A stretch of DNA of 29,644 nt from a virus: the IMG/VR virus record IMGVR_UViG_3300008999_000027, positions 1-29,644 of that record. One strand, written 5' to 3'. The notes beneath the pieces were generated by a model that saw only the letters and a list, made by a program, of their open reading frames with translations, was not told the origin of the DNA and searched no databases. Positions 11,362 to 29,644 of the stretch are shown here, piece after piece. A program made the position numbers and the translations under genes. Each line of letters opens with the position of its first letter. Position 1 is the stretch's first letter.

Positions 11362-13161
11362 ATGGCAGAAAGTAAAAGAACGTTCCAGTCGGCTAAAATG
11401 GATAAAGACATTGACGACAGAATATTACCAGCAGGCACTTATAGAGACGCACTCAACGTTAGTGTAGATTTTTCCGAAGATGCGAATGTTGGAGCATTGG
11501 AAAACCTTAAAGGCAATGAACTTTTAGCTAATCAAAACATTCTAGGTTTGAGTGCGGCTTCAAATCCAAACGCAGAAGTAATTGGCAGCATAGCCCACCC
11601 AGAAGAAAATAAAATTTATTATTTTGTTACAGGTGACAACACCGATGGAATATTCGAGTACGACTTCAGCTCACCCACTCCAACTGTAAATACTGTAATA
11701 GTAGATTCATTAACGGAAGTGCCAGAGGTTACAACCGTTTTCAACTTTGCAGATGCTTTTGTAACAGCTTCTATATCACAAAGCGGGATAATTTCCGTTG
11801 CAAGTGGAAATGGTGTTGCTAACGCTATAACCCAAACCCAAGCACCAAATAATACTGGATCCGCAATAAGTGTAACAATACAAGTTAGAGTTAGAGTTCC
11901 AGCTGGGTATTCTAATTATAATAACTACGTACAAGGGCCAGTCACGGTATTTCAACCTTCTGTAACTGCACCATCTCCAACAACAACATTTTCTAGCAAT
12001 GTTGCAAGTACAACTGCAACACTTAATGGTAAAATAAATAGAAATAATGTGGGTGTTACAACTGTAGGTTTTAACTGGGGTTATAATACAGCTGGAACAG
12101 CTTTAACAGCTTCAGAGCTGCAAACAGTGGGACCAACCGGCGGAACTACAGTTTCCACTGTCTCTCAAAATCACGGTACCGTTGATTTTAAATCAGATGT
12201 AACTCTTTTACCTAGCTCTAAGTTAATAAGCTTTATTGCTTTTGCCACTAACTCGGTAGGCACAGAATACGGTGATGTAAAAACATTTAACACTGCAACA
12301 GTTATTGCTCCTACGTATAATACTTTGCCAGATGATAAGTTATTTATTTTCCCAACAATTTGTGACGAAACAACAAACCAACTTGGCCCGTACTATCCGG
12401 GTTATGGTGACTTTGAAAAGGCAGATGGCAATTTTTATTTTGCCGTAGTTGCTTCAAAACAAAGCGGTTTATTTGCTGACTATACCGATTTAACAAATGA
12501 AACAAGTTTATTAAGCAATACAGGTCCCGCTACTTTAACTTTTGCCAATGCTGGACCAAATTATCCAACTAATTATGCGAAAACCCGAAGTGAATATGTT
12601 ACAGCAACTACCACTGGAATGTATACTATTACAGCTTCCAAAGCTGGGCTAACGTCAAATAGCATACAAATAAAAAAAGGAACAGTCTCTAACGCTGTGT
12701 ACACTTCTACTTTTAATTTAAATTTTTCAAAAACAGGAACCGGAGCAGTGCCGGCTGTAGCTGTGTTTGACCATAATACGAGTGGCTCACTGCACTGGAA
12801 TGCTTCTCCACTCCCTTTAGCTAGTTTCAAAATAGGGCCGTTCGAGCAGTCGCATGGCAACGGCGCTATAATAATACCTATAGCAAATGATACTAATGTT
12901 CCTTTAGCAACAGCAACAACTTCAAGTTTTACAGGGTTTGACCCTACGAAATTAGATGTTTCTATAACAGGGAAAACAGAAGGTGTTGACTATAACTATT
13001 ACATTTCAGAAGAAGCTATGTCAATTTGGGGCTCTAATGCATTAAGCTCCGTAATACCAGCTATTGTTATAGAGGCGGACCCTTACACTTTAAATACCAA
13101 CCAATTTGGTTTTACTGCAAACTTAGACTCACACACTTTAAATATAACATATAATTATTAA
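11362..13161 (+). CDS. Tail protein, N-terminal segment of a split core plus adhesion domains
   Basis: This is a 599-aa protein. Residues 1-56 (FQSAKMDKDIDDRILPAGTY, RDALNVSV, NVGALENLKGN) and about 75-102 (IGSIAHPEENKIYYFVTGDN, GIFEYD) match the start of a large tail protein that I recall as a single chain in marine Bacteroidota phages. The core then stops, and beta-rich domains follow. A segment with VTIQVRVRVPAGYSNYNNYV lies near residues 158-190. One fibronectin-like repeat (about 204-312) has ATLNGKI, VGFNWGY and AFATNSVGTEYGDVKTF. About 290 further residues of Thr/Ser/Asn-rich beta sequence end in SHTLNITYNY. The N-terminal part would sit in the tail and the C-terminal domains would project and bind the host surface. 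The rest of the core seems to be encoded by the genes at 13387 and 17405. Confidence 0.75.
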   Translation: MAESKRTFQSAKMDKDIDDRILPAGTYRDALNVSVDFSEDANVGALENLKGNELLANQNILGLSAASNPNAEVIGSIAHPEENKIYYFVTGDNTDGIFEYDFSSPTPTVNTVIVDSLTEVPEVTTVFNFADAFVTASISQSGIISVASGNGVANAITQTQAPNNTGSAISVTIQVRVRVPAGYSNYNNYVQGPVTVFQPSVTAPSPTTTFSSNVASTTATLNGKINRNNVGVTTVGFNWGYNTAGTALTASELQTVGPTGGTTVSTVSQNHGTVDFKSDVTLLPSSKLISFIAFATNSVGTEYGDVKTFNTATVIAPTYNTLPDDKLFIFPTICDETTNQLGPYYPGYGDFEKADGNFYFAVVASKQSGLFADYTDLTNETSLLSNTGPATLTFANAGPNYPTNYAKTRSEYVTATTTGMYTITASKAGLTSNSIQIKKGTVSNAVYTSTFNLNFSKTGTGAVPAVAVFDHNTSGSLHWNASPLPLASFKIGPFEQSHGNGAIIIPIANDTNVPLATATTSSFTGFDPTKLDVSITGKTEGVDYNYYISEEAMSIWGSNALSSVIPAIVIEADPYTLNTNQFGFTANLDSHTLNITYNY

Positions 13162-13163
13162 TT

Positions 13164-13394
13164 ATGCCAAAAGCAATCATAACACAATCAACGCCTATTT
13201 CTGAAGCTCAAAATTTTATAGCTGAAAGCGAGATTACTGTAGAAAGCATTGTTAATGAGTATAACTTTAATTTAAACTTCTCAGAAGGCGATGTTATAAG
13301 TTTAGGCACAACTTTATCATTAAATGAATTTAAAGAGCCAGAAATCATAAATGGCGTGGTTCAAACACCTAAAGTAATTATAACATATGTCTAG
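13164..13394 (+). CDS. Small tail-module protein, unknown
   Basis: This 76-aa protein lies between two tail genes, starting 2 bases after one stop and overlapping the next gene by 8 bases. It is acidic and probably beta-rich (NEYNFNLNFSEGDVISLGTT, then PKVIITYV). Its last strand resembles the ending of the preceding protein (LNITYNY). It may be a small structural subunit, a chaperone for the fibres, or a remnant of a domain that once joined the neighbouring coding regions. No homology is recognised. It lies in a different frame from both neighbours, which share a frame with each other. Confidence 0.6.
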   Translation: MPKAIITQSTPISEAQNFIAESEITVESIVNEYNFNLNFSEGDVISLGTTLSLNEFKEPEIINGVVQTPKVIITYV

Positions 13395-16300
13395 TAAAAT
13401 ATTAAAATTTAGTAAAGATCGTTTAATAACAGGAATTAACATAGTTGATGGAATGTTATTTTTTACAGACAATCATAGTGAGCCTAAAAAAATAAACATT
13501 GAAAAGTTTAAAGGTAATGACCCAGACGTCCCAGTTGACCACAGTACAGGCACAACATCCATATACAGACGGACATTTCAAGAGGCTGATATAACCGTAA
13601 TAAAAGGTCATCCAAAACACGCTTTAAACACTGATTTAACTACTTCTGGTGGTTATTCAAGTGGTGGTGGAGATGGTTATGGTGGTGGTGGTGGTGATAT
13701 TATTGTTGACCCAACACCCGATCCCGTAGCAAACACCTTTCGTATTTCTACTCAGAAGCCAAGCGCAGGGGCGTCAATAAATAAAATAAATTTAGAAGGT
13801 AGATTAATAACTGGAGTAAATGAAATTGGGGAGCAAGGCTTTTATTATACATTTAGTGATAGTTTTGGATCTAGAACGGATTTAGAGGATATTGATTCGC
13901 TTATTGAAAACTTAGGCAACGGAGTATATAAGATACAGGAAGACGCGCTTAGTGAAGGTATTTATAATTTACAAGTTCCTACAAGTACTGCTTCTTCTCA
14001 AGGAGCTGTTGTTGGTGGTTACGTATACTACATTGCATACTGTATAGTGAAGGTTTCTAATAACGGAACTCAGCGCGATGAAGTTAGATATGCAAGCAAA
14101 AAGGAAGTTTATAAATTAGAAGATACCACTTCAGTTCCAACTGGAACAATTTCTGATTTAAAAGTAACAATTTCTAAAAGACCTGGTTTATTTGCTGGTG
14201 CTAGTTTATCTACAACTATATATGCTACCTTTAGCAATACAACTAATTTATTATTAAACGATTTACCCCGCGGTTTTTATATAAGTGCTGCATATAAAGA
14301 AATAGATAACCCAACTCCGCCAACAACAACAGAAATCACAGCCCAGGTTGATGATAAGCCGGTTGATAGTCAAAGTCTTTTCCCTATAGCATACAACCAA
14401 AGGTCTCAAACAAGTTTTGGTTTTGGAAACGAAAATCAATTAAATTTGAACACGTATGTAGACATGAGCGCACTAAACACGGGCGATTTGTATTTTGTAT
14501 ATTGTTATATAGAACTTCCTGACGGTACTATCGTTTATTCGCCAGTAGAACGGTTTGTGGTTGACGCAGAACCTAACCAAGAGGGGCCTAGTTTAGCTCA
14601 CAAACCAGCTGATGTTCAAGAAACAGAAGTGGGTTTAAACGCAGAAGTTTATAATGCAGGAGCAGAAGCCACTATAACAGAAAGAGGGTTTGTTTTTTCT
14701 ACTGAAGTGGATGAAATTAATACCGTTAATAGAATATTTACAGATTTTAATAGTCAAGCACCTTATGAATATAACGGAAACGAAAGTATTAACAATACAT
14801 TCAAAGTTCCCGTACCTATACCAACTGGAGAAGATGGCTTAGGGGATATTTCTATTTCTACAGAAAATTATTTAACTAATCTTTTAGGAGGAACAACATT
14901 AAATTATGTTGCTTACGCTATAAATAGCAGGGGGCAAAGAAGTTATGGGGGCGATTACTCTGTAGGAGGTTTTTTCGCTTCGAACAATGGAATGCTTAGT
15001 GTTATTACTCAAGAAAATAGCACACCAAGAATTCAAGCTGGAGTTGGACTTAATTACTATAAACATGAGGGAGCTAACACGGACCCTCTTGAGCCTATTT
15101 TTACTTTTAAAGTTTTAGGAGGTATATCTGACCCAACTAAGGTTACAAGCATGGGTATTGTTTATGCTTATGCTACCGGACCTAATATTGATTACGGTGT
15201 AACTTACGAAAACCTTATAAAATTTGCTGGCGATGAAGAGCATTCAAAAATTGACCTTGCACCAACCTCGGTAAATCTTGATATAACGCAATTTGATTAC
15301 ACAGGAGTTGATGCAGACCAAATAATTGGTAACTTTGCAATCAAAGACGGATTTGAAATTGCAGGTAGTAAATATATTAATCCAGACGACTCAGCGCTTG
15401 TAGAAGCAATTAGAGTAAGTAGAGGAGACGATCATATAGAATCTTTAAGTTATACCTGGGGGCAACCTTTAATTAAAACATTAAGCTACTATGCTTATAT
15501 TGAGTACGACGGTGTAACATACAAAAGTAAAGTTTCTAGAGGGTGGTTTCAAGGAAACAGCGCTATTTGGGGAGACTTAACAGCTTTTACAGGTAGGTAT
15601 TGCGGCACTATGGCAATGATTGCTCCAACTTTTTTCTCGGGAGGTAGAGAAGCTAGTAAGACGCATCTTCCTGAAAAGCCACCAGTGGGAGGAACAGCTC
15701 AAATTTATGGAGCCATGTGCCCAAACTCACTACACGGCGGTACTGTAGGAGGGTCATTACAAGAGCTTGGTTTTTACTGGAGTGAAACACCAATAGACGC
15801 TGGTGACGCAAACATAGCAACTAATGAAAAAATAAAAAAATGGACTGAAGCATCAACTACAAGTAAAGTACCTTGTACAGGTGGTGGACCAAACGCTATA
15901 GACCCTACAAACCCAGTAAACACAGGTACATCAGCAAAACACTGGCACGTAGGTGCTACTAGTGATAATAGGGGACATTTTGAATTTTCTGCCACCATTG
16001 GACCATTTAGTTCGAATGCTACTAAAATATATTGGGTTCCTTATTTAAAACCACAACCAAGAGGTGATTTAGCTGGTTTATGGAACTTTAGTGCACCTCC
16101 TGTAGATATATACGCTAATAGCGCAGGGGGCGGCGCATTAAATTCCTTTAGTATTGGAAGCGCTATAACTACTATTGATGTAGAACCTAGCGTTTCAATA
16201 ACATCAGCAAAGGAGCTTAGAAGTGGTTTTTTGGGCTTTACAGGCATGGCAGAACCAGGGTCTAGTAACTACGAAATAAGTAGAAAAGGTTTTTATATTA

Positions 16301-17376
16301 AACCGCTTTCTAGTTTTGCTACACCAAACGATCAAGCTTCTGTTAAAACAGAAATGGCTAATGCAACTGGTAGAACTACATTATACACTAATAACAACTT
16401 TAACCCCGGCTCTGAGTACGGTGCTAGCAGTACATTTGCTACAGGAAGTTATTTGGCTTCTGCTTTTTGTGAAATAATTATAGCAGGAACCACGTATATA
16501 AGAATATCTGATAATAACCGAAGAGAAGACATTGGAACACCCCCAGCTTCTACAGTAATAACCACACCTGTAGTAACTAACACGGGCGGGGGAGATGTTA
16601 TGAGTGGAACAGTTGATTCTAAAGGAGTTGCGATAGCATCAAAAGGTTTTTATCTACTAGAAGTAAAAGGTAAGCTACATAACAACCCTAATTTAAGTAA
16701 ACCATCAAATGGAGCTGCTTTAAAGCAAATTTTTAATGGTACTTTACCTAGTAATGTAACTGCTATAAATGAACCCAGCTCATCCACAGACCCCTTAAGT
16801 TCTGCTGTTTTTCGAGCTAGCATACCAAATCAAAAAAGAGGGTATGTTTATTATTACGCTGCATACGTTACAAACAGTAAAAGCGAAGAGGGTATTTCTC
16901 CTGTGGTTAAGCACAAAGAATACCAGGAAGTTATTGATAAGTTCATAGAAATAAGTCCCGTTCCTTTTAGTCATACTATTAAGGCGGACAACAGAGGGCG
17001 AGTTAGTTTGTCAGGCGACACGAGCTCATACGTAAACCAAGTATCTGTAAAAGTTACGACCGAAAACAACTCTGCAGATAATTTTAAATTTACAGTTTCT
17101 CAATGGAACTCTGGTGGTAGAATTAGCACAATTAGCAAAAGAACTAGTCCGAACGGTAATTTTTTAGATATACCTTTATTAGAAGCAAATTTTCAAACTT
17201 CTCCTAGACAATGTACTTTAAAAATAACACACGCCACAGATCCCAGTAAAGAAGTTGCACTATCAATACTTCAGGAGGGCAATAGTATCATTATGGATGA
17301 ATTTGATGATTTCATACCACCTCGAGACTTACTGAATGACGATTTGTTTGGTAATGATTTTGGGAACTTATTTTAA
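13387..17376 (+). CDS. Giant tail fibre/adhesin: core segment 2 plus FnIII-like repeats and a BACON-like end
   Basis: This is a 1329-aa protein. Residues 1-75 (ITGINIVDGMLFFTDNHSEP, KKINIEKFKG, DITVIKGHPK) match an internal segment of the tail protein core whose start is encoded at 11362. A Gly-rich hinge (87-103) follows, then about seven fibronectin-like units. Each has a GF-x-[YFV] strand (near residues 150, 433, 589, 794, 966, 1085) and an A-Y/A-F strand (near 213, 369, 507, 701, 882, 1023, 1155), such as NYVAYAINSRGQ and YYAAYVTNSKSEEG. This is the repeat style of Bacteroidota surface proteins. Residues ~1183-1300 resemble a BACON domain (ends VALSILQEGN). The last 26 residues are acidic and phenylalanine-rich. 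It is the likely receptor-binding fibre. Confidence 0.75.
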   Translation: MSSKILKFSKDRLITGINIVDGMLFFTDNHSEPKKINIEKFKGNDPDVPVDHSTGTTSIYRRTFQEADITVIKGHPKHALNTDLTTSGGYSSGGGDGYGGGGGDIIVDPTPDPVANTFRISTQKPSAGASINKINLEGRLITGVNEIGEQGFYYTFSDSFGSRTDLEDIDSLIENLGNGVYKIQEDALSEGIYNLQVPTSTASSQGAVVGGYVYYIAYCIVKVSNNGTQRDEVRYASKKEVYKLEDTTSVPTGTISDLKVTISKRPGLFAGASLSTTIYATFSNTTNLLLNDLPRGFYISAAYKEIDNPTPPTTTEITAQVDDKPVDSQSLFPIAYNQRSQTSFGFGNENQLNLNTYVDMSALNTGDLYFVYCYIELPDGTIVYSPVERFVVDAEPNQEGPSLAHKPADVQETEVGLNAEVYNAGAEATITERGFVFSTEVDEINTVNRIFTDFNSQAPYEYNGNESINNTFKVPVPIPTGEDGLGDISISTENYLTNLLGGTTLNYVAYAINSRGQRSYGGDYSVGGFFASNNGMLSVITQENSTPRIQAGVGLNYYKHEGANTDPLEPIFTFKVLGGISDPTKVTSMGIVYAYATGPNIDYGVTYENLIKFAGDEEHSKIDLAPTSVNLDITQFDYTGVDADQIIGNFAIKDGFEIAGSKYINPDDSALVEAIRVSRGDDHIESLSYTWGQPLIKTLSYYAYIEYDGVTYKSKVSRGWFQGNSAIWGDLTAFTGRYCGTMAMIAPTFFSGGREASKTHLPEKPPVGGTAQIYGAMCPNSLHGGTVGGSLQELGFYWSETPIDAGDANIATNEKIKKWTEASTTSKVPCTGGGPNAIDPTNPVNTGTSAKHWHVGATSDNRGHFEFSATIGPFSSNATKIYWVPYLKPQPRGDLAGLWNFSAPPVDIYANSAGGGALNSFSIGSAITTIDVEPSVSITSAKELRSGFLGFTGMAEPGSSNYEISRKGFYIKPLSSFATPNDQASVKTEMANATGRTTLYTNNNFNPGSEYGASSTFATGSYLASAFCEIIIAGTTYIRISDNNRREDIGTPPASTVITTPVVTNTGGGDVMSGTVDSKGVAIASKGFYLLEVKGKLHNNPNLSKPSNGAALKQIFNGTLPSNVTAINEPSSSTDPLSSAVFRASIPNQKRGYVYYYAAYVTNSKSEEGISPVVKHKEYQEVIDKFIEISPVPFSHTIKADNRGRVSLSGDTSSYVNQVSVKVTTENNSADNFKFTVSQWNSGGRISTISKRTSPNGNFLDIPLLEANFQTSPRQCTLKITHATDPSKEVALSILQEGNSIIMDEFDDFIPPRDLLNDDLFGNDFGNLF
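13645..13695 (+). repeat. GGT-rich low-complexity tract encoding a glycine hinge
   Basis: Seventeen codons encode SGGYSSGGGDGYGGGGG, mostly with the codon GGT, ending in five GGT in a row. At protein level it is a flexible linker between the core segment and the adhesion repeats. At DNA level it is a possible slippage site that would change linker length in steps of one residue. Confidence 0.8.
13790..16930 (+). repeat. Array of divergent fibronectin-like repeats inside the fibre gene
   Basis: About seven protein-level repeats share the order: a strand near GF-x-Y, a variable middle, and a closing Y/F-x-A-Y/F strand often followed by N-S-x-G. They are diverged at the DNA level, so no exact direct repeats are expected. 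Boundaries are approximate and set by eye. Confidence 0.6.
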
Positions 17377-17404
17377 TAGATTAACTTTAAATAAATAAAA
17401 ACGC

Positions 17405-20400
17405 ATGGCTGATAAAGTTAAACCTTTTGAAGAAATATTTCCCTACTTAAGCTATAGATGGAGATACGACGATGGGGAATACTCTCCGTATGCTCCTTTT
17501 ACTGAGGTTCAATTTAGTTCTACTTCAGATATAGATGATTTAACACGATTTAAGGAAGGTTTTAATTCTTTTATGGTTAATGATGCTGATGAAATTGTAA
17601 TAACTAAATTACCTAAAGGTAGAGAAGATGTTGTTGCGGTAGATATACTGTATACAGAATCTATTTCAACAACAATATATGTATTAAAAACAATTGAAAT
17701 TCCCGCTGCTGAAAGAGGTACCGGGAATTTATATGACATTAAAATACCAAGAAGAGCTATTGGTGCTGCTTTAGTTAACGACCAGTTAAACAGACATTTT
17801 GATAATGTACCTTTAAAGGCTAAAGCACAAGAAATAACTGCTAATAGGTTAATGTATGGTAATTATCTTCATAAATTTGACCAAGGAACCGCTGAGTTAA
17901 ATGGCGATTTTGCTATTAACACAGGAGTTTCTCTAGATCAAAGTAAACCAGCTGGAAGGTCTGTAAAAACAGATAGGAATTACGAAATTGGAGTGGTGTA
18001 TATTGACAAGTACGGTAGACAGGGTTCTTTATTGACACAAAAAACATCTACCGGAGCATCTACAGGTTCTTTAATTAAAACAAATTTTACTTATGGTGGT
18101 CCAACAAAGCTTACAGGGCAAATTTTAAACACCCCTCCACAATGGGCAACTTGTTATAGATATTTTGTTAAAGACACTTCGGGTGATTTTAATAACATGA
18201 CCTCTTTTTATTCTTACCTAGATGGTACAGTTGGAGATGATGATGCCACCGCAGCTTACATACAGTTTGATTCAAAAGATAGAAACAAAATTACTGAAGA
18301 TGATTTTTTAATGCTTCGCAGGTCTACTTTGGTTGTAGAAGAAGGTGAAGTCGTTAGAGAGCTATTTAGACAACCTGTATTAAGTATTGAGAACGAAGCG
18401 CCTGACACTGTTAAGCAACAATTAGCTGAAAGAAAAGTTGCTTCTATAGGACAGACTTTTAACAGTAAGCAGGCTAAAATATGGAATGGAACAACGCTTG
18501 GTAGCGGAGCTAGTACAACCTCAATAGGGCAAACAGTGTTATATTTGCATGACGGCAATAATCCGTTTGATTTAGTTGGTTTAAATAGATATATACAAGA
18601 CCAGGATGGTACAGCTAATACTTTAGCTGTTGAAGTTGGTAACAATCCAACAACACCAATTACAATAGATTGTACTCAGTTTCCAGAAAGACTTTTAATG
18701 AAATTTAAAAGAGCTCAAGGTAGTAATATTGGACAAGGTACTAATCAAGAGACTGAATTATGCGTAGTTGATGAAATTTCACTTTTAGGTAGTACAGGAG
18801 AAGACAGAAGAAGTATATTAAAATTAACACTAGATAAGAGGTTTACTTCTCAAGGTACAATTAGTGGTACAAACCTAGGGCTTAGTGTTCAAGGTATAGA
18901 CATGGAGCAGGATGTAAATAATGATGGAGCGCCTCCATTTTATAACCCTAAAATTGTTTTTTCTAAAATAGCATTAACAGAAACTGCTTTAAATAAACTT
19001 AAAGGTTCGTTTTTTGTAAAAATACCTACTGCTTTTACAGACCCGAGCACTTCTGCAACAATTAGATCAATACCAATAGGACAGACTACACTTAATGAAG
19101 ATGGAGATGTTGATAAATTAATTACATTTGATTTTGAGATAAGTCCTAAAGATGATTCTAATTTAGATTTATACTGGGAAAGCTCTTCAACATTTGATTT
19201 AGTAGATCATGGTAAAGTAAACGTAATAAACTGGAGTAATTGCATAGCGGTTACAGGAGGTGTCCCTAAGGCTATATATAAAGAGTCAACAAAAATACTC
19301 GACAAATTTAACGGCATTGAACTTGTTAAATCAATAAGAGTTAACACTCCTGACACTAGGTTTGCACAAGAAAGAAGGAAGGCGGGAATAATATTTTCTG
19401 GGCTATATAACTCAAAGACAGGTATAAATGAGTTGAATCAGTTTAACATGTCTTTAAACCCCACAAAAGAACTCGAAAACAATTACGGAGGAATACAAAA
19501 AATGTTTGCCTTAGATAGCAATTTATTAACATTAACAGAGGATAAAGCATTTAATGTTCAAGTTGATAAAGATATACTATTTAATGCTGATGAAGGGCTT
19601 AACGTAACTGCTACAAGTAAGGTTATTGGATTTGCACAAGCATACAGTGGCAATTACGGCATAAGCACACACCCCGAATCTTTTGCTTTTTTCGGTAACA
19701 ACGCTTATTTTACAGATGCGAAAAGAGGCAATGTAATGCAACTCACCCCAGCTAACGGTCAGTTATTTCCAATTAGCTCTCAAGGGATGTCAAACTTCTT
19801 TAGAGATCGTATAGGCACAGCTGATAAACTAATAGGGGCTTATGATGGATCTAAAAAGATGTATACCTTATCTATGCAAGGCTATGACCAAACCAGCGCT
19901 TCAATTGGCTCTGAAACAATTCCGAACGAAACCTCTAACATAACTTTAGGTTATAGTTTAAGAGGTAAGAGTTGGACTTCTAGATATAGCTTTATACCTG
20001 AGTCTGGTGTAACAATGAACAATAAGTTTTATACATTTAAAAATGGTCAAGCTTACTTGCACAACTCTGACGCTGCGCTTAGAAATAATTTTTATGGAAC
20101 GCAGTATAATTCAGAAGTAGAAATAATATTTAATGATAATCCGACTTATGTATCAGACTTTTTAACGTTAAATTATGAGGGTGATTCTGGATGGGAAGCA
20201 ACACAATTAATAGGCGACCAAGACGGAGTACATAATATAACAAACGTAAGAATACTTGACTCTGAAGAATCTGGTTTTTTAGGATGGTTCCTTAAAGAAG
20301 GAAAATACCATGGAGCAGTTGTAGGTACACAACCTGTATATATAATTGATCCAAGTGGTTCTGTTGGAGCTGATGGGTTTTGGCCACTTATACAAGATGG

Positions 20401-20524
20401 TGCAAACACACAGGATATATCTGGAACAAAAGGATTTTTCTTAAAAACAAGGTTTAAAACATCAGCAACGACCGCAAAAGAACTTTTTGCAATTAGTTCT
20501 GAATATTACATTAGTCAAACATAA
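17405..20524 (+). CDS. Large tail protein, C-terminal segment of the split core (nozzle/hub candidate)
   Basis: This 1039-aa protein carries the longest conserved stretch of the tail core. It includes FPYLSYRWRYDDGEYSPYAPF (residues 13-33), VAVDILYTESISTTIYVLKT, and the signature NQLNRHFDNVPLKAKAQEITA with NRLMYGNY. I recall these in one chain downstream of the motifs found here at 11362 and 13387. The rest is mixed beta sequence (TPDTRFAQERRKAGIIFSG, LTEDKAFNVQVDKD, AFFGNNAYFTDAKRGN), consistent with a propeller-like body. A role as the central tail nozzle/hub carrying fibres is plausible. Unlike the other two pieces it lacks obvious fibronectin-like repeats. The start follows an AAATAAATAAAA leader. 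Confidence 0.75.
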   Translation: MADKVKPFEEIFPYLSYRWRYDDGEYSPYAPFTEVQFSSTSDIDDLTRFKEGFNSFMVNDADEIVITKLPKGREDVVAVDILYTESISTTIYVLKTIEIPAAERGTGNLYDIKIPRRAIGAALVNDQLNRHFDNVPLKAKAQEITANRLMYGNYLHKFDQGTAELNGDFAINTGVSLDQSKPAGRSVKTDRNYEIGVVYIDKYGRQGSLLTQKTSTGASTGSLIKTNFTYGGPTKLTGQILNTPPQWATCYRYFVKDTSGDFNNMTSFYSYLDGTVGDDDATAAYIQFDSKDRNKITEDDFLMLRRSTLVVEEGEVVRELFRQPVLSIENEAPDTVKQQLAERKVASIGQTFNSKQAKIWNGTTLGSGASTTSIGQTVLYLHDGNNPFDLVGLNRYIQDQDGTANTLAVEVGNNPTTPITIDCTQFPERLLMKFKRAQGSNIGQGTNQETELCVVDEISLLGSTGEDRRSILKLTLDKRFTSQGTISGTNLGLSVQGIDMEQDVNNDGAPPFYNPKIVFSKIALTETALNKLKGSFFVKIPTAFTDPSTSATIRSIPIGQTTLNEDGDVDKLITFDFEISPKDDSNLDLYWESSSTFDLVDHGKVNVINWSNCIAVTGGVPKAIYKESTKILDKFNGIELVKSIRVNTPDTRFAQERRKAGIIFSGLYNSKTGINELNQFNMSLNPTKELENNYGGIQKMFALDSNLLTLTEDKAFNVQVDKDILFNADEGLNVTATSKVIGFAQAYSGNYGISTHPESFAFFGNNAYFTDAKRGNVMQLTPANGQLFPISSQGMSNFFRDRIGTADKLIGAYDGSKKMYTLSMQGYDQTSASIGSETIPNETSNITLGYSLRGKSWTSRYSFIPESGVTMNNKFYTFKNGQAYLHNSDAALRNNFYGTQYNSEVEIIFNDNPTYVSDFLTLNYEGDSGWEATQLIGDQDGVHNITNVRILDSEESGFLGWFLKEGKYHGAVVGTQPVYIIDPSGSVGADGFWPLIQDGANTQDISGTKGFFLKTRFKTSATTAKELFAISSEYYISQT

Positions 20525-20538
20525 AAAAATAATAAATT

Positions 20539-21282
20539 ATGCCATTACCAATAGCAGGCGCCTTAATAGGTGGTGTTACACAAATTGCCAGTTCCATAAT
20601 AGGAAGCGGTGCGCGTAAAAGAGAGCAAGCCAAGGCTCGGCAAGAATACGAAGAGCAGAGAGCGGCTTTTAAAGACTTTACGTTTACCAACCCATATTCA
20701 AGTATGGAGAACGTTTTTGAAGACGCTACAATCAATCAACAAGCAACACAATTTCAAGCTCAACAAACAGATCAAGCTTTAGCTCAATCACTGCAAGCTG
20801 CAACAATGGCTGGAGGTGCTTCTGGAGGTGCCCAAGCTATAGCCCAAGCAGCTTTACAGTCTAAGCAAGGTATTGCAGCTGATATAGCGCAGCAAGAAGC
20901 GGCTAATAGAGCAGCTACACTGTCGCAAGAAGCAGCTTTGCAATCAGCAGAAGCGCAAGCGGGAGATGCTATACAACAGCGACAATATGGTCAAACACAA
21001 CAGCTTTTAAATATGGCTTCTGGTCGTAAAAATGCTGCTGACGCAGCTAGGGCTCAAGCAACTCAAAGACTAGTTAGCGGGATTGGCACTGTAGCTGGCG
21101 GGTTGTCTAGTGGTGGATTTTTTAACAGTATGGGCGGAGCTGCTGGAAATGCTAATGCAGGAATGAATTTTGGCGAATACCAAGCAATGGGTGGACAAGG
21201 AACTAGAGCGGACATGCAAGGTTTTGGTGGCGGAACAAGAGTTGGTAACTTCTTGAGATCTAATTTTAATTTTAATAATTAA
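20539..21282 (+). CDS. Internal virion/ejection protein, T7 gp14-like
   Basis: This 247-aa protein has an N-terminal hydrophobic Gly/Ala/Ile segment (LPIAGALIGGVTQIASSIIG) and a basic helix. A NPYSSMENVFEDATINQQATQF motif follows, then long Ala/Gln-rich helices, and a Gly/Asn-rich C-terminus. The motif and helical composition are those of the small internal core protein of short-tailed phages (gp14 in T7), which is ejected into the host envelope and helps form the DNA channel. Its position first in a set of three genes of rising size (247, 630, >2154 aa) mirrors T7 gp14-gp15-gp16. Confidence 0.75.
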   Translation: MPLPIAGALIGGVTQIASSIIGSGARKREQAKARQEYEEQRAAFKDFTFTNPYSSMENVFEDATINQQATQFQAQQTDQALAQSLQAATMAGGASGGAQAIAQAALQSKQGIAADIAQQEAANRAATLSQEAALQSAEAQAGDAIQQRQYGQTQQLLNMASGRKNAADAARAQATQRLVSGIGTVAGGLSSGGFFNSMGGAAGNANAGMNFGEYQAMGGQGTRADMQGFGGGTRVGNFLRSNFNFNN

Positions 21283-21288
21283 TATATA

Positions 21289-23181
21289 ATGGCAAAAATG
21301 CAAGCAAGAGGGGGTTATCAAATATCGATTCCACCCCAGATCAGTGGGAATATACATGAGTTTTTAAAATACAACGACATAGCTAAAGCGGGAGCACCTA
21401 CTAATCTTTTGGGAGATGCTCTTTACGACATAGGGTCTGGGATTGCGCAGATGTTTGAAGATGAAATTTCTCCTGAAAAAAAAGAAATTATTAAAGAAAC
21501 AAACACTTTTGATCCAAATGCTAATGTAGAAACAACTACAGAAGATACCAGTGTTACTGAAACCCCGGTAGAAACCGGTGTTAATGAAGAAATCCCACCG
21601 CCACCGCCTCAACCCCAAATACAGCCAGTAGTAACAACACAAGAAACAACCGATGTTGACGAAACAGAGATAGTTTATGTGAATAGTGATAACCGACCTC
21701 CCAGGACAGGACAGTTTGGAAGTGCTAACTCTTCAAGAAGATCAGAAGACTATGATGACTTGAAGCACCGCCAGGGGTTTGCAATACCCAACAGGCAAAA
21801 ATCCAGTGCTGGTTCTTTTGGGACTGATTACTTTAATCTTAATAAAGGCTTCCCTCGTTTGAGTAAAGAAAAAACAAATGAAAACAGCGTACTGCAAACC
21901 CTACAAGCGTTTGCTTATCCTTATAAAAATACCGAACAAGACTCTCCTTTAAGAAGGATTGCTCATGTAGCAAACTCTCCGTTTTTAAAAACAGATAGTT
22001 TAAAATACCGAGAAATGCGTGAAATGACATACGACCCTAATAAAAGAGGTTCTATTGGAACAGCATTTCAAGAAGCATTTAACGTTCAGGTACAAAAATT
22101 TAATTACGGACAAAAAGTAAAAGCTGACTTTGAAAGTGCTGTAGGCGATGAAATAGGACAACTAGTTGTTGATGTAGATAAGGTTGATGACCAATGGCAG
22201 TCTAGTATACTAGCAACTGCTCAAGAAATGAAGTCCTCGTTATACAATGATTACATAGATTATATAAACGGAGACTTAAGTAAAGTTGATTACGAAACAA
22301 AAAAACTAGGTTATCAAAGTGAATTAGGAGAATTAAGGCAAGGTAATGATAACTTAGTAAAATCTGCAAAAGTGTATGCGGAGAATAAACATTTAATCGA
22401 CCCAGACGCATCTGATGACGCTGTTATGGATTTTTGGAACACTAGAGAACAAGCTCCTGGTAATATTAAAATTCAAAAAGCTGAAAATGGCGTAAGATAC
22501 TACACTGGGGAAACTATAAATGGGGAATATTTTCAGTTGCCAGTAAGCAAGATTGCTAATGGCACCTCTGGCATGAACTTAGTTATGAGCGCTAATTTAA
22601 GTCCAGATATTACAAAAATAGTTGCTGGTATTAAAACAATAAAAGAGCAGACTATTTTAGAGAACGGATATACAATGGGTAACCTTAAAGCGGATGATCC
22701 AAGAATTACCAACTACTCAGTGAGCAGATTAAAAAGTGCTCTTAATGATGAAAGTGTTTTAAGGTCTGCAGCTGCTAAGTATGGAAACTTAAACTCAACA
22801 GCTTACGCAGAAACTATAAAAGATAAAGAAGACAGAAGTGCTCTTATTCAAGATTTAGCTGAACAAATACATACGGAAGTTGTAGTACCTCAGTATATTC
22901 CTGAAGAAAGAACGTATACAACAAAACAAAAAGAAGCTGCTCCTGATAAAAGAGCAAAAGAGCAAACAGAAGCTTTTGTAGAGCAATATGATAGTTTAGG
23001 AGAAATAACTGAAACAAATATAAATAGCCTAAAACAAGGCAAAATTACCGATGCTCGATTCGTTGAAGGTAAATTAAAAGTTAAAATTGGTAATAAGGTT
23101 ATTGCATTATCTGACGACCCTTCTGTAAGAAGAAAACAAATTATACAACTACAAGGAGGACAACTCCGATACATAAAATAA
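21289..23181 (+). CDS. Probable internal virion/ejection protein, T7 gp15-position
   Basis: This 630-aa protein starts 6 bases after the gp14-like gene. The N-terminus (residues 1-60) contains YQISIPPQISGNI and GDALYDIGSGIAQMFEDE. Residues ~75-125 are Thr/Glu/Pro-rich and likely disordered, with a PPPPPQPQIQP run. The rest is soluble and mostly helical (for example DLAEQIHTEVVVPQYIPEER) and ends in a short beta segment (RFVEGKLKVKIGNKVIALSD). No catalytic motif is visible. I assign it to the ejectosome by position only. The proline run could be a tether that lets the protein thread through a narrow tail. Confidence 0.55.
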   Translation: MAKMQARGGYQISIPPQISGNIHEFLKYNDIAKAGAPTNLLGDALYDIGSGIAQMFEDEISPEKKEIIKETNTFDPNANVETTTEDTSVTETPVETGVNEEIPPPPPQPQIQPVVTTQETTDVDETEIVYVNSDNRPPRTGQFGSANSSRRSEDYDDLKHRQGFAIPNRQKSSAGSFGTDYFNLNKGFPRLSKEKTNENSVLQTLQAFAYPYKNTEQDSPLRRIAHVANSPFLKTDSLKYREMREMTYDPNKRGSIGTAFQEAFNVQVQKFNYGQKVKADFESAVGDEIGQLVVDVDKVDDQWQSSILATAQEMKSSLYNDYIDYINGDLSKVDYETKKLGYQSELGELRQGNDNLVKSAKVYAENKHLIDPDASDDAVMDFWNTREQAPGNIKIQKAENGVRYYTGETINGEYFQLPVSKIANGTSGMNLVMSANLSPDITKIVAGIKTIKEQTILENGYTMGNLKADDPRITNYSVSRLKSALNDESVLRSAAAKYGNLNSTAYAETIKDKEDRSALIQDLAEQIHTEVVVPQYIPEERTYTTKQKEAAPDKRAKEQTEAFVEQYDSLGEITETNINSLKQGKITDARFVEGKLKVKIGNKVIALSDDPSVRRKQIIQLQGGQLRYIK

Positions 23182-23182
23182 T

Positions 23183-26100
23183 ATGGAAGACGAAACAATG
23201 ACATTTTCTGAGTGGCAGAATGGACAATCGCAAGATATTTCACCTAAAGAAAATGAGGAAGCAAACGAGTTCGATAACAATAATTCTGTGTCATTTGACC
23301 AATTTCAAATGGATCAATTTGAAACACAGGAATTACAAAGAATAGAAGCTGAAGAATTTGAAAGCGACGTACAGGCTAAACGAGAAGAAATAAAAAACGC
23401 AGCTAAAGAGTATAATTTACCTGAATGGTGGATAAGAACATTAAAAGGCATTAAAGGTTCCACTATGAATATTAGTGAAGGTTTTGACAATCTTATTACT
23501 GATGCTATAATTGATACTTATGATGAAGTTGTTGGTGGAGGTAGAAGTGCTGAGGAAAAAAGAGCTTTAGCCGATAAAGTTTTTAGCTTAGGAGGGATAT
23601 TGCCAAATACAGATGCAGATATAAAGGAAAGATTTGGCGATCCAGCTGTTGATATAGCAGCTTCATTTACTGATTACGGTACAATAGTAGACGAAGACAC
23701 AGGAGAAGTTAGACAAAAAGACTTTGTTGATTTAATAGGGGAAGATGATTACAAGGCAGCTGCAGATAATTTAGCCAGCAACTTGGTCCAGGCAGCGCCA
23801 TCTGCTCTAATAGCTATGACGGGTATAGGAGGGGTCGTTGTTTTAGGAGGATCCGCTGCGGGTGCTAAAGCAAAAGAAATTGATGAAGAGTACGGTACCG
23901 GTGTAGACTTTAGTAAAAAATGGGCAAACGCAGCAACAACAGGTGCTGGAGAATTTGCTACTGAATTAGTAACATTTGGTTTAAGTAGAGGTTTAGGTAA
24001 AGTCGCTACTAAATACGGGTCAAAAGCTATACCTAAGTTACTTAAACAATTTGGAGATGTTGCTTTTGGTGTTGCTTCAGAAGGCGCATCTGAAATTGGT
24101 GCGGATGCTATAAGCAGGGCTGCGGATAAATATTACATGGGAGATACTACAGCTTTTGAAGGTTTCGGTAGAGCCTCTGTAGTTAACGGTGTTATTGGTG
24201 GAATTATGGGAGGTGGTATGTCTTTTATAAATAACGGTAAGCCAACAGGTACTATAGCCCAAAAAGTTGTAACCCCGTCATCAATAAGAAACGCTCAGAA
24301 AAAAGCAGCTGTAGAAATGCAGATGCTAAAAAATGAAATAGCTAATGCGACAAGCAAAGAAGCTGAAGACATACTTAGTCAACAATTAAAAGATAAGCAA
24401 AACTCATTACGCGATTCAAATAAGATGGTACAAAACCAGCTTAGTAATTTGTCAGATGAGCAGTTAAAAAGACTAGCCGAGGTTAGTGGTAAAATAGCTT
24501 TGTATGAAGACATGCTCAGTGATGATAACTATGATGATGCTTCAAAAGGCTTATTCAGATCACAAATTGTTGATTTAGAAAATGAAAAAAACACAATATT
24601 TTCTAATCCAGACATAACTGATATTCAAAAAGCAGAACCAGTTAGTAAAAAGAATGTTGAATTATCTAAAGAAGCACAAAATTTATACGAAAGTAATAGT
24701 AACCCTACCGTTATAGCAGATAAACTTGGTGGGCTTGCAGGCACTGTGGCAAATAGAAAATGGAGTTTAGTTGCGCCAGATCTACAGGTTGGTACTTATC
24801 AAGATTTCTTATCAGCTTTAAAATTCGGCAAAGGAGGTATTGTAGACATGGTACGCACCTATGAAGTGCAAAAAAACGATTCCATAGCTGCGTATGTTGC
24901 TTCTCTTATGGATAAACGCGCAGATAGAATTATAGGTAAGTTTACTAAAAGAAAAGCGGATACATCTATAGAAAAGGCTAGAGGTGTTATGGCTGAAGAA
25001 TCTGGGCCTACAGCTGCAGAACTTGCGGATAGACTAACAATACCTCAACAAGCAATTGAAAAAGCAGCAACCAATGCAGAACTATTTAACTTAAAGCTTG
25101 ACAAAATATCTAATATTAAAGATTATGTTAAGCAACAAAAAGATTTCTTTAAAACATATCTAACACCTGAAATAAAAAGTTTTTTAAAACCAAAAGGCTC
25201 TCAGTTGGAAAAACAGAAGGCTTTAAAGAACTATGTTTATAAAAATGTAGATACGCTTAAAGAATTATACATAGCGGCGCCTGGTTTAAATAAAGTGCGC
25301 TCTGGGCCTATTGCAACATGGAGTATTACTCCGCCTACTAATAAAGAGTTTGCAGACTATATTATGGGTGAAGATTTAGATTTGTCTACACCTAAAGGAC
25401 GCAATGCTTTAAATAGCAGAAAGGATAAAGTTGCTGAAAGAATTGCTGATAGTCTAGGACAAAAAGCTTGGCAAGAATTTGTTGATAAAAACCAAGATAC
25501 TAGCGATAGCATCAACAATTTGAGTAAACAAATCGTAGAAGAATCCGCGGATAGAATGTATACACCAATGGAGATTGGGGAACGCATTAACTCTCCAAGA
25601 TTATTTGCTAAAACGATTAAACCTATAGCTGATAATATTGTAAAAAACAAAGGCTACGACAATAACGCTTTCCGCGAATTTGTAAAAAAGTCACCTTTTC
25701 CTAATTACGCTATACAGTTTGCTAAAACCATGTACGATGAAGGCAGTCTTGTGGGCACAACGTATGGAGGCATAATATATGAAGACGCGTCAAAAGCTTT
25801 CTTAAGAGCTGCTGGCATTAACGTCCTTGAAGTACAATCTGGAGGATTTGATTCCACAGTACCTGATTTACAAGTAAAAGTTCCAGATGGCAGGCTGCTA
25901 AACGTTGAGTATAAGTCTAACAAAGGTGATAGGCTAGGCCAATTTACTATTAGGATCGAGCCAGATGGGAATATTAATTATATTGAGAACAGAAAAATAA
26001 TAGATATAAGTAAATATCCTGGAGGTGATGTAATAAATAATTTTATTCAAGATAAAATAAAAAGCAAAGCATTTAAGCAGGTTCTTGACAAAATAAACGA

Positions 26101-29100
26101 AATAGAAAATAGAATAGGCAACGATAAAATAACTAATATACCGTTTGGTTCAGCCATAAAGCAGAGTACATGGGACCAAATATTAAAGCTACCTGCCTAT
26201 AGACAATTAGTTGAAACTATAGAAATACCTATTGAAGCTGTAATAGATCATTATACTGGTAAAGGTCCTGATAAATCTTCTTTTTTGATACAAATTGGAG
26301 GAAGTGGACTATACCATTTTAAAGATCCAATAAAAGGTATTCCTTCTAAAAAGTTTGACGGTAATGTCGTTGCAAGGTTTAGGCTAAAAAGTGGTGGCGG
26401 GATGGGTAAAAACGGAAAAGCTTCGTTTAGCTATGTTGCCGAGCTTGGCATGCAAGGGGAATTTGAAAATTCAGATTTTAATTTAGACAACAAAGAAAAT
26501 GTTGCAGACTTTAAAGCTGCTGTTGATAACATAACACCCGACGATAAACTATCCTTCCAGTTAAAAAGGCAAGAAGCTTTAGAGGGTTTAAGAGATGTTA
26601 AGGAAAAACAAATAAACGAAACTTTAGCTAAGCAATTTAAAGACGTAAGCAATGTAGCCGCTACGGAAGATACAGCAAGAACTTTAACTGCATTGCTAGA
26701 TAACGCTTGGGGTGGTAGTGTTGATACTACAACCAACAAAGCTACAGCTGTTGAGTATCTTGTAAAAAACCAAGGCTTAACACCGCAAGAAGCTAAAGAT
26801 GTAGTAAATAAAGTGAATGGATTCCAGCAATCAAATTTTGTGTTTGTTAATAAAGATGGCTCTAACTTAGACACTAAGTTTCATGAATTTCAGCATATAT
26901 GGAACAAAGTAGTGTATAGCAAATCACCTCGTGTTTTTAATGCTTTATATGAAAAAATAAAGAACGAAGCCCCCGAGCTTTATAAGCAGCAGGTTAAAAG
27001 AATAAAAGAAGCTGGGTACAATTTTAAAGAGGATTCGTTTGAATGGAAAGACGAAATCATAGCTGGCATTGGAGGCTTAAACATAGCTAAAGAATTTACT
27101 GACCCGCAACAGCAAAAATCATTTAAAGATTTGATGTTGGAATATTGGGACATTGTTAAGAAATTTTTAGGCATATCTAAAATGGCTAAAGATAAAACTT
27201 TGCAAGACATGTCAGTCGGTGAGGTTTTAGACGTCATGGCTTATGAAGTATTATCAGGTAAACCTGGTTCTGTACTATCTAAAATGAAACCAGAAAGCTG
27301 GCTAGCTCCGACTATGACAAGATTAGATCCTTCTTACAGTATTTCTAAGGATAAACAATTTCAAGGGCTACAAGCGTTGAAAAACGAATATAGAGATTCT
27401 AAGGATTTATCTAAAGCAATTGAAGCTGGATATAATGTAGTAAAAGGTTCTTATTCTTTAGAAACTTGGACAGAGTTTGTTGAAAAAGCGGTTAAAGAAG
27501 CAAACATTAGCAACAGCAAAACCCTTTATGTAGCTAAAGGGACATGGCTTGCATCTAACGATATTTCTTTAGACAATATACAAGAATTAGAAAAACTTAA
27601 GTTTAATGAAGAATTAAATAAAAAAGCACGTAATTTAATATACTCGGCTAAAGATAAAGGTAAGCCTTCTAAATGGTTTATACCGCCTAACGCTGAAGAT
27701 TTCCGTGGATTGTTATACACGCTTTTTCCTAAAGGAAAAGCTGGTAAGGAAGCTAAGGAATTTTATACAAAGTATGTTTTAGAGACTTATCATCAAGGTG
27801 TTCAAAATGCTAATGCCGAGGTTGTTAATAAGCTTAAGGCTGTAAAAGAAGTTATTACAGGTGTAAAAATAAACGAAGATATAGAAGGCACTCCCTACAA
27901 TGTTGGCACAGCCGTGAAAGTTTACAATTGGGTTAGAAATGGGCAAGATCCATTACCTAACTCTAAAAGCTCTCAAAAGCAAGCTATAATTGATAGAATG
28001 ATAGCCACTGTTGATGGGGATCCTAAACTAGTTGAGTTAGCTGATTTTCTAAATGAAAACGTTAACATACCTTATAGTGATACTAATTTAACTACTAGCT
28101 TAGGCCAAAACATTTTATCAGAAGTTCAGAAAAATGTTAGAACTAAAAACCTCGAAACTTTTGCTAATAATGTAGATGCTATTTTTGATCAAACAAATTT
28201 AGACCAACTAGAGAAACAGTTTGGGGATAAATATGTGCAATCTTTAAAAGCTACGATAAAGAGAATGAAAACCGGTAGAAACAGAACTGGTCTTGACTCT
28301 CAAAGTAACGCTTTTGCAAAGTGGTTAGGTAGAGCTGTTGGGTCTACTATGTTTATTAACCGAAGATCCGCTTTATTACAGACTATATCGTTTGTAAATT
28401 TCATAGGTAAAGACAACAACAATCTGTTTCAAGCTACAAAAGCTTATGCTAGCCCAGATGCTAATCAAGTATTAAAGAAGCTTTGGACTAGTGACTATTT
28501 AGTTAATAGACGTGAAGGTGCTAAATTTGATGTGCTTGCAGATGAAATTGCTGAAGAAAACAATTTAATAGATAAAGTGTTAAACTTTGGATTCTGGCCT
28601 ACTAAAATGGCAGATAGTTTCGCTATAGCTTTCGGAGGAGTTCCTTACTACATAAACACAAGAAACGCTTTAATCAAACAAGGTGTTAGCAAAAAAGAAG
28701 CAGAAGCTACAGCTATGCAGAAATGGGTTGAAGCAGCTGAAGAGACGCAACAGTCTTCAGACCCTTCTAAAATATCTGAAATACAAGCCTCTACTGTTGG
28801 TAAAATTATATATGCTTTTGCAAACACGCCGTTTCAGTATGCTAGATATGCTAAAAGGAAATTACAAGATGTGGCTAACGGTACGTCTAAAAATCCTAAA
28901 AAAGATATGGGTTCTATATTGTATTACACGATAGGGCAAGCTGCTATGTTTAGTGCACTGCAATCTGGATTATTAGCTTTAGCTATGTTTGGGGATGAAG
29001 AAGACGAAGATCTTATTGATGAAAAGACATTACAAGCCATAGAAAGGTCTATAACTTCTTTTGCTAAATCTCTAGGTAACCCTGGGGCTATAACAGCAGC

Positions 29101-29644
29101 GACTTATAGTGTTCTCAAAGAAGCTATGCAAGACAGAACTTCTGGAGAAAAAATAGCTTTAGCTGCTACTGAAATATCACCTCCAATAAATTCCAAACTT
29201 AAAGATTTAAACTCAGCTTATTGGGCTAAAAAATATGATGACATACCTGGTATGATTGGAAAAATTGGATCTTTTGTAGGAGTGCCTTTAGATAATATCT
29301 TAGCTATAACAAACTCAATGGTTGCTTTCACTAACGACCAGCTCGAAACATGGCAAAAAATAATGTTAGCTTTAGGCTGGAGCGAATGGGATGTTGCTCC
29401 TGATGTTAAAAAGAAAAAATCTAAAGCTAATGAGTTTAAAGACGAAATTTGGAATGATGATGAGTGGAATGATGCCGACGATTGGGCTGAAGATAATTGG
29501 GAGGACACACCTGTTAAAAAGTTAGAAAGAGGAGTTGCTGGTAGAGCAAATAATGATGGAACTATAGAGATAGACCCCAATCTATCTCCCGTTGAACGTG
29601 AAAAAACTATCGCGCATGAAGAACAACATATGAAAGACATGAAA
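23183..29644 (+). CDS. Giant polyvalent virion/ejection protein (partial, 3' end missing)
   Basis: The frame is open from ATG 23183 to the window end: 2154 codons and no stop. Order of parts: N-terminal acidic region; hydrophobic Gly-rich segments (~208-232 and 334-352) that could insert in membrane; a coiled-coil-like stretch (~370-480); a region around 545-590 (GGIVDMVRTY, IAAYVASLMDKRADRIIG) that weakly recalls sigma region 2; a PD-(D/E)xK-like segment with P894-D895 and E909-Y-K911; SSFLIQIGGSGLYHF (~1033-1047); a metallopeptidase-like HEFQH (1234-1238) with E1291 as possible third ligand; WFIPPNAEDFRGLLY (~1498-1512); then an LPD38-like region with VGSTMFINRRSALLQTISFV (~1719-1738), PTKMADSFAIAFGGVPYY (~1806) and FANTPFQYARYAKRK (~1879); finally HEEQH (2145-2149) at the edge. 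It is analogous in position to T7 gp16 and is probably injected with DNA. Confidence 0.85.
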   Translation, partial: MEDETMTFSEWQNGQSQDISPKENEEANEFDNNNSVSFDQFQMDQFETQELQRIEAEEFESDVQAKREEIKNAAKEYNLPEWWIRTLKGIKGSTMNISEGFDNLITDAIIDTYDEVVGGGRSAEEKRALADKVFSLGGILPNTDADIKERFGDPAVDIAASFTDYGTIVDEDTGEVRQKDFVDLIGEDDYKAAADNLASNLVQAAPSALIAMTGIGGVVVLGGSAAGAKAKEIDEEYGTGVDFSKKWANAATTGAGEFATELVTFGLSRGLGKVATKYGSKAIPKLLKQFGDVAFGVASEGASEIGADAISRAADKYYMGDTTAFEGFGRASVVNGVIGGIMGGGMSFINNGKPTGTIAQKVVTPSSIRNAQKKAAVEMQMLKNEIANATSKEAEDILSQQLKDKQNSLRDSNKMVQNQLSNLSDEQLKRLAEVSGKIALYEDMLSDDNYDDASKGLFRSQIVDLENEKNTIFSNPDITDIQKAEPVSKKNVELSKEAQNLYESNSNPTVIADKLGGLAGTVANRKWSLVAPDLQVGTYQDFLSALKFGKGGIVDMVRTYEVQKNDSIAAYVASLMDKRADRIIGKFTKRKADTSIEKARGVMAEESGPTAAELADRLTIPQQAIEKAATNAELFNLKLDKISNIKDYVKQQKDFFKTYLTPEIKSFLKPKGSQLEKQKALKNYVYKNVDTLKELYIAAPGLNKVRSGPIATWSITPPTNKEFADYIMGEDLDLSTPKGRNALNSRKDKVAERIADSLGQKAWQEFVDKNQDTSDSINNLSKQIVEESADRMYTPMEIGERINSPRLFAKTIKPIADNIVKNKGYDNNAFREFVKKSPFPNYAIQFAKTMYDEGSLVGTTYGGIIYEDASKAFLRAAGINVLEVQSGGFDSTVPDLQVKVPDGRLLNVEYKSNKGDRLGQFTIRIEPDGNINYIENRKIIDISKYPGGDVINNFIQDKIKSKAFKQVLDKINEIENRIGNDKITNIPFGSAIKQSTWDQILKLPAYRQLVETIEIPIEAVIDHYTGKGPDKSSFLIQIGGSGLYHFKDPIKGIPSKKFDGNVVARFRLKSGGGMGKNGKASFSYVAELGMQGEFENSDFNLDNKENVADFKAAVDNITPDDKLSFQLKRQEALEGLRDVKEKQINETLAKQFKDVSNVAATEDTARTLTALLDNAWGGSVDTTTNKATAVEYLVKNQGLTPQEAKDVVNKVNGFQQSNFVFVNKDGSNLDTKFHEFQHIWNKVVYSKSPRVFNALYEKIKNEAPELYKQQVKRIKEAGYNFKEDSFEWKDEIIAGIGGLNIAKEFTDPQQQKSFKDLMLEYWDIVKKFLGISKMAKDKTLQDMSVGEVLDVMAYEVLSGKPGSVLSKMKPESWLAPTMTRLDPSYSISKDKQFQGLQALKNEYRDSKDLSKAIEAGYNVVKGSYSLETWTEFVEKAVKEANISNSKTLYVAKGTWLASNDISLDNIQELEKLKFNEELNKKARNLIYSAKDKGKPSKWFIPPNAEDFRGLLYTLFPKGKAGKEAKEFYTKYVLETYHQGVQNANAEVVNKLKAVKEVITGVKINEDIEGTPYNVGTAVKVYNWVRNGQDPLPNSKSSQKQAIIDRMIATVDGDPKLVELADFLNENVNIPYSDTNLTTSLGQNILSEVQKNVRTKNLETFANNVDAIFDQTNLDQLEKQFGDKYVQSLKATIKRMKTGRNRTGLDSQSNAFAKWLGRAVGSTMFINRRSALLQTISFVNFIGKDNNNLFQATKAYASPDANQVLKKLWTSDYLVNRREGAKFDVLADEIAEENNLIDKVLNFGFWPTKMADSFAIAFGGVPYYINTRNALIKQGVSKKEAEATAMQKWVEAAEETQQSSDPSKISEIQASTVGKIIYAFANTPFQYARYAKRKLQDVANGTSKNPKKDMGSILYYTIGQAAMFSALQSGLLALAMFGDEEDEDLIDEKTLQAIERSITSFAKSLGNPGAITAATYSVLKEAMQDRTSGEKIALAATEISPPINSKLKDLNSAYWAKKYDDIPGMIGKIGSFVGVPLDNILAITNSMVAFTNDQLETWQKIMLALGWSEWDVAPDVKKKKSKANEFKDEIWNDDEWNDADDWAEDNWEDTPVKKLERGVAGRANNDGTIEIDPNLSPVEREKTIAHEEQHMKDMK

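Follow-up and report, generated by a model that had tools for sequence, protein, structure and literature searches.

A phage tail muzzle apparently encoded in three genes, two of them extended by long adhesin-like arms

Results

We analyzed a window of 29,644 bases from the IMG/VR virus record IMGVR_UViG_3300008999_000027, read on the + strand, in which three open reading frames (ORFs) appear to divide among them one tail-protein core, the muzzle or nozzle gate of crAss-related phages. Gene 1 lies at 11362-13161 (599 amino acids, aa), gene 2 at 13387-17376 (1329 aa), and gene 3 at 17405-20524 (1039 aa). The motifs on which a first-pass annotation had based the idea of a divided core are all where it placed them, with KMDKDIDDRILPAGTYRDALN near the start of gene 1, ITGINIVDGMLFFTDN..EPKKINI at the start of gene 2, and both YRWRYDDGEYSPYAPF and NQLNRHFDNVPLKAKAQEI within gene 3; it did not mention an adjacent 76-aa gene, whose last 8 bases overlap the beginning of gene 2. 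The features of the locus, with models from AlphaFold2 (AF2) and with immunoglobulin (Ig) and fibronectin type III (FN3) domains as assigned below, are as follows.

11362 to 11709, + strand: core segment 1 (residues 1-116 of gene 1), assigned to the N-terminal part and propeller blade 1 by phrog_14478, AF2 strands, and single-chain alignment
11710 to 13161, + strand: extension 1 (end of gene 1), predicted chain of Ig/FN3-like beta-sandwich domains, from the AF2 model and multi-domain matches in PDB
13164 to 13394, + strand: small gene of 76 aa between genes 1 and 2, with an ORF of similar size in most three-gene loci
13387 to 13638, + strand: core segment 2 (residues 1-84 of gene 2), assigned to propeller blade 2 by alignment to single chains and the S2 profile
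13639 to 17376, + strand: extension 2 (end of gene 2), variable arm of about 1245 residues with low identity within the clade
17405 to 20524, + strand: core segment 3, assigned by phrog_14478 to the muzzle from its first Ig-like domain onward, with blades 3-7
20081 to 20200, + strand: crAss_MUZ_C match (residues 893-932 of gene 3; PF25729, E-value 3.7e-8, 34.1 bits against a cut-off of 27)

Proteins 1 and 3 matched one and the same profile, phrog_14478 (1474 positions), protein 1 with residues 5-144 at positions 2-127 (E-value 6.6e-22) and protein 3 along the later part of the family (E-value 3.5e-86), so the split pattern is not due to chance. The crassvirus muzzle C-terminal domain, PF25729, which gene 3 carries with a score above the family cut-off, is also present in seven of nine single-chain relatives. 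Upstream on the + strand, the gene order is endolysin, GroES-like, terminase, portal, and more virion structural genes, and the terminase, the portal, and two small virion structural genes are arranged just as they are next to the undivided gene in phi38:1 and elemoE. After these two small genes, the ORF at the equivalent place is a single one in cultured relatives (1324 aa in phi38:1, 1386 aa in Gundel_1, and 1470 aa in elemoE).

Residues 1-970 of a single-chain relative, L057, folded by AF2 from a 53-sequence alignment, gave a propeller/Ig protein (predicted template modeling score 0.74). Its best fold matches in PDB were the crAss001 muzzle chains 7qok_A and 7qol_P (for 7qok_A, E-value 1.2e-25 and template modeling score 0.53 by query length), followed by portal-tail chains of cyanophage A4 and tail chains of SU10; this evidence comes from one model of a distant homologue on a long tree branch, not from the three chains of the window modeled together. 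Sequence searches of PDB using P0004 or the single-chain profile returned no muzzle, which came from the fold search alone, and a profile comparison against crAss001 gp44 alone aligned only the C-terminal part. From the family, the gene position, and the predicted fold of L057, we identify the core as the muzzle/nozzle gate of a crAss-related podovirus of Bacteroidota, and not as the tail fiber proposed in the first-pass annotation. A crAss-type muzzle is a single polypeptide and three ORFs were found here; since every core stretch is present once, we file the locus as a variant of that type.

The single-chain relative posited in the first-pass annotation proved to be real. BLASTP found single proteins with the three segments in order in the IMG/VR loci L007-L010 and L012-L015 and in ctfjg026, Gundel_1, and phi13:2; L011 is truncated at the 5' end. 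The absence of such chains would have refuted the first-pass annotation by its own criterion, and its interpretation is largely borne out. Single chains carrying all pieces in order make up 53 of the 90 rows of the tree described below, including phi38:1, Gundel_1, and the elemo phages. With a single-chain model built from nine sequences, we found all three pieces in eight other three-gene contigs, each once and tiling end to end, and in clade members model positions 1-110 were matched in chain 1, 112-185 in chain 2, and about 182 to the end in chain 3.

In crAss001, gp44 (MUZ; PDB 7qok, 7qol) is a seven-bladed propeller gate with the domain IG1 (residues 163-292) between blades 2 and 3 (PMC10172136). 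Two of our core profiles, S1 and S2, gave weak matches to gp44 at residues 7-95 and 111-157, the latter directly before IG1, and in the L057 model the strands of blade 1 span residues 63-112 and those of blade 2 126-184, with an Ig domain from about residue 203. Together, the profile matches and domain limits place cut 1 between blades 1 and 2 and cut 2 between blade 2 and IG1. In the resulting assignment, both cuts fall at propeller-blade boundaries, and chain 1 is the N-terminus and blade 1, chain 2 is blade 2, and chain 3 is the Ig-like domain with blades 3-7. Compact single chains have linkers of 9-15 residues at cut 1 and 10-17 at cut 2, and other single-chain relatives have about 100-465 residues inserted at these linkers, which fits the earlier proposal that surface loops of the core became chain ends. 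One pair of close single-chain muzzles, L044 (7030-12669) and L047 (8455-12720), differs by about 460 extra residues just before blade 1 in L044, apparently a recent insertion.

Both junctions carry TAA stops in 22/22 three-gene loci, and the frame relations between the genes vary among contigs. The downstream pieces begin with an ATG start, except in the called ORF of L005, and the core segments start within a few residues of their start codons. The three-gene form was also found in one contig of a Bacteroidetes metagenome-assembled genome (MAG), which fits a Bacteroidota host. Given these stops and variable frames in the 22 distinct contigs, and the same layout in the MAG contig, the breaks are not explained by assembly error, frameshift, or readthrough; sequencing error and an altered genetic code were likewise ruled out by the junctions. 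We also weighed whether readthrough, frameshifting, splicing, or an intein might link the pieces covalently into one giant muzzle chain with two inserted arms, for which the large insertions at the same two places in single-chain relatives would speak. This is very unlikely in view of the universal stops, separate starts, and shifting frames (no search aimed at inteins or introns was made), the separate small gene between genes 1 and 2 in most loci, and the closeness of each core segment to its own start codon.

Among clade pairs, the core is far better conserved than the arms, with median identities of 71% for core 1, 58% for core 2, and 57% for chain 3, versus 27% for extension 1 and 4% for extension 2 (median coverage of extension 2, 14%). 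Between the window and L004, nonsynonymous and synonymous divergence (dN and dS) were 0.055 and 1.66 for core 1 and 0.158 and 1.45 for core 2, with dS near saturation, and dN was 0.25 and 0.70 for extensions 1 and 2. With the same near-saturated dS, dN/dS was about 0.03 for core 1, 0.11 for core 2, and 0.10 for chain 3, compared with 0.27 for extension 1 and 0.37 for extension 2. The cores are under purifying selection, uncut homologues exist, and all split products are conserved. No second copy of any core piece and no intact muzzle was found in eight split-clade contigs of 40-65 kb, records that may be incomplete. In two loci, gene 1 is cut again within its arm, into 208 aa and about 370 aa (L029 2815-4573 and L033 2694-4473), and it is whole in L030 (579 aa). 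Such further division would be expected if the split genes were decaying remnants or assembly artefacts, a reading that we regard as hardly credible, because the same cuts recur in 22 distinct contigs and the MAG contig, which are monophyletic with deep divergence, the cores are under strong purifying selection, and the eight contigs yielded no intact copy.

The AF2 model of gene 1 has a four-stranded blade at residues 72-116 (strands 72-78, 84-90, 94-101, and 108-116) followed by beta-sandwich domains, and it matches Ig/FN3 multi-domain chains in PDB with a low overall template modeling score, as expected for such chains. Arm 1 is thus predicted to be a string of Ig/FN3-like domains, in line with the first-pass annotation, which had both arms built of fibronectin-like domains; for the arm of gene 2, FN3-like repeats are suggested by eye only. 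The arms are hypervariable and probably sit at the tail tip, and may therefore contact the host. The 76-aa gene has a counterpart of similar size in most three-gene loci, 14 of these being alignable, and gave no family match. Because the loci with the longest gene 1 (L026, L027, L035, and L120) lack it, it may act as a partner to the arm of gene 1.

To place the split form among its relatives, we surveyed 202 distinct loci with five core profiles (S1-S5), writing a slash for a gene break. Whole single chains were found in 45 loci, along with many truncated or slightly variant ones; 1234/5 in 43 loci; 1/2/345 in 22, some ending at a contig edge; 12/345 in four; and 1/2345 and 123/45 in one each. 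We did not count the Maribacter phage Panino (L017 7446-11359), in which the muzzle as annotated breaks inside the S4 region to give 946 and 320 aa; this break may be a further fission or a sequence error. On an unrooted tree of shared S3 and S4 columns, the 1/2/345 type forms one clade (100/100), L040, which has cut 1 only, is its sister (100/91), and the next clade is uncut. The tree indicates that the three-gene form arose by stepwise fission, from uncut to one cut to two cuts, with the direction inferred from the undivided state in crAss001 and from how widely single chains occur. The 12/345 type is a separate clade and 1234/5 requires two changes, so that this one tree implies five to six separate fissions. 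The stretch between S3 and S4, the crass-fold region, is shorter in the split clade (about 420-440 residues) than in the uncut sister clade (620-650), as though growth of the arms had gone along with partial loss of the distal domain.

In many 1234/5 genomes, additional genes of about 80-960 aa separate the two muzzle pieces; in L067 (6185-7117), L074, L082, L196, L224, and others, there are one or two such genes, several sharing an N-terminal stretch of about 50 residues. A homing endonuclease, a splitting element common but not universal at the breaks of phage genes in pieces, was considered as the splitter, and neither the 76-aa gene nor the genes between the pieces of other split types gave an endonuclease match. 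In phi13:2, of the 1234/5 type, both pieces are annotated as structural in the record by similarity to phi8:3, whose virion proteomics the record cites as its basis; gp97 of phi38:1 is not mentioned in the Cellulophaga phage proteomics paper.

Downstream of gene 3 lie ORFs at 20539-21282 and 21289-23181 and a giant ORF of >2154 aa (23183-29644) that is open at the window end; it gave no family match, and relatives have a giant structural protein there.

Discussion

We conclude that the locus very probably encodes one muzzle as a gene in pieces, with three chains that would meet in the virion to close one seven-bladed propeller per subunit. Like crAss001 gp44, the product would be a seven-bladed propeller with an Ig-like domain between blades 2 and 3 and a conserved C-terminal domain, encoded directly after a ring-protein gene. 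On the other hand, gp44 is one chain of 1371 residues (Pfam crAss_MUZ and crAss_MUZ_C), whereas here there are three chains, two with long C-terminal arms. The crAss001 paper describes length variation as insertions into the crass and IG2 regions, and the words split and cleaved are absent from it (PMC10172136). We found no published split muzzle or nozzle among open-licence papers, in agreement with the first-pass annotation.

Several points weigh against this conclusion. The correlation of pairwise distances with those of chain 3 is only moderate for both core 1 (Spearman 0.53) and core 2 (0.46), the matches of S1 and S2 to crAss001 gp44 are weak by sequence (0.006 and 2.3e-4, full search), and residues 1-42 of gene 1 are of low model confidence when modeled alone. 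Chains 1 and 2 might also not be in the particle at 1:1:1, and receptor binding by the arms is inferred from their variability and fold class.

Alternatively, chains 1 and 2 could be separate fibers with a muzzle-derived anchor, docked on the outside of a propeller that chain 3 forms alone, either complete or with five blades. In favor of this reading, the N-terminal anchor is often the conserved part of a phage fiber. In SU10, moreover, the short fiber docks on a loop of blade 1 (PMC9509320). However, model positions 1-110 and 112-185 occur only in chains 1 and 2, with none doubled in chain 3, and the four blade 1 strands are all retained in chain 1, which exceeds what a docking peptide requires, so we consider docked fibers improbable.

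If the three chains do build one muzzle, they would be produced from one gene cluster, in which gene 2 starts inside the small gene's end, and come together on the tail barrel, where core 1 would fill the position of blade 1 and core 2 that of blade 2, and chain 3 would supply blades 3-7 with Ig-like domains. The outward-facing blades 1 and 2 would then be plugs that anchor two long adhesin-like arms at the tail tip. The SU10 nozzle is similar in that blades 1-3 face away from the channel, but it is a single chain, and its fibers are trimers that dock as parts of their own and do not continue any blade (PMC9509320). The arms would stand where relatives such as SU10 have, at blade 1, the dock of the short fiber and, between blades 2 and 3, the Ig-like domains of the nozzle. 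Rooted in the propeller, which in crAss001 gates the channel with a loop of blade 4 (PMC10172136), the arms could pass receptor contact straight to the gate.

The proposed assembly in trans is supported by precedent. Phage genes in pieces such as Aeh1 nrdA, the split gene 43 DNA polymerase, and the T4 topoisomerase likewise divide one ancestral chain among genes, and their products reassemble, as we propose for the muzzle; those are enzymes, several of them split by homing endonuclease insertion (PMC2988022), whereas the protein divided here is a virion gate, the breaks fall at the limits of blades, the newly made chain ends have gained domains, and no endonuclease match was obtained. In Sec13/Nup145C and Seh1/Nup85, a second chain provides the blade that a propeller lacks (PMC8907234), but there one partner provides one blade, in eukaryotes, while here two chains would provide two blades by gene fission.

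More tentatively, and with slightly more doubt than confidence, we suggest that muzzle blades are detachable adaptors and that several lineages independently cut the gate at domain boundaries and hung or inserted adhesin-like genes there. A receptor-sensing arm would then be part of the gate, swappable without touching the channel-lining blades. Since related muzzles with the C-terminal piece on a separate gene occur in cultured Cellulophaga phages such as phi13:2, phi18:3, phi46:3, and phi19:3, reassembly is directly testable.

Annotation would otherwise read these three genes as unrelated tail proteins. The series of uncut, one-cut, and two-cut forms is a natural case of a folded domain becoming a multi-chain complex, and a tail gate built from split propeller blades, if true, would represent a novel route to building and diversifying the tail tips of phages, with receptor contact mechanically linked to the gate.
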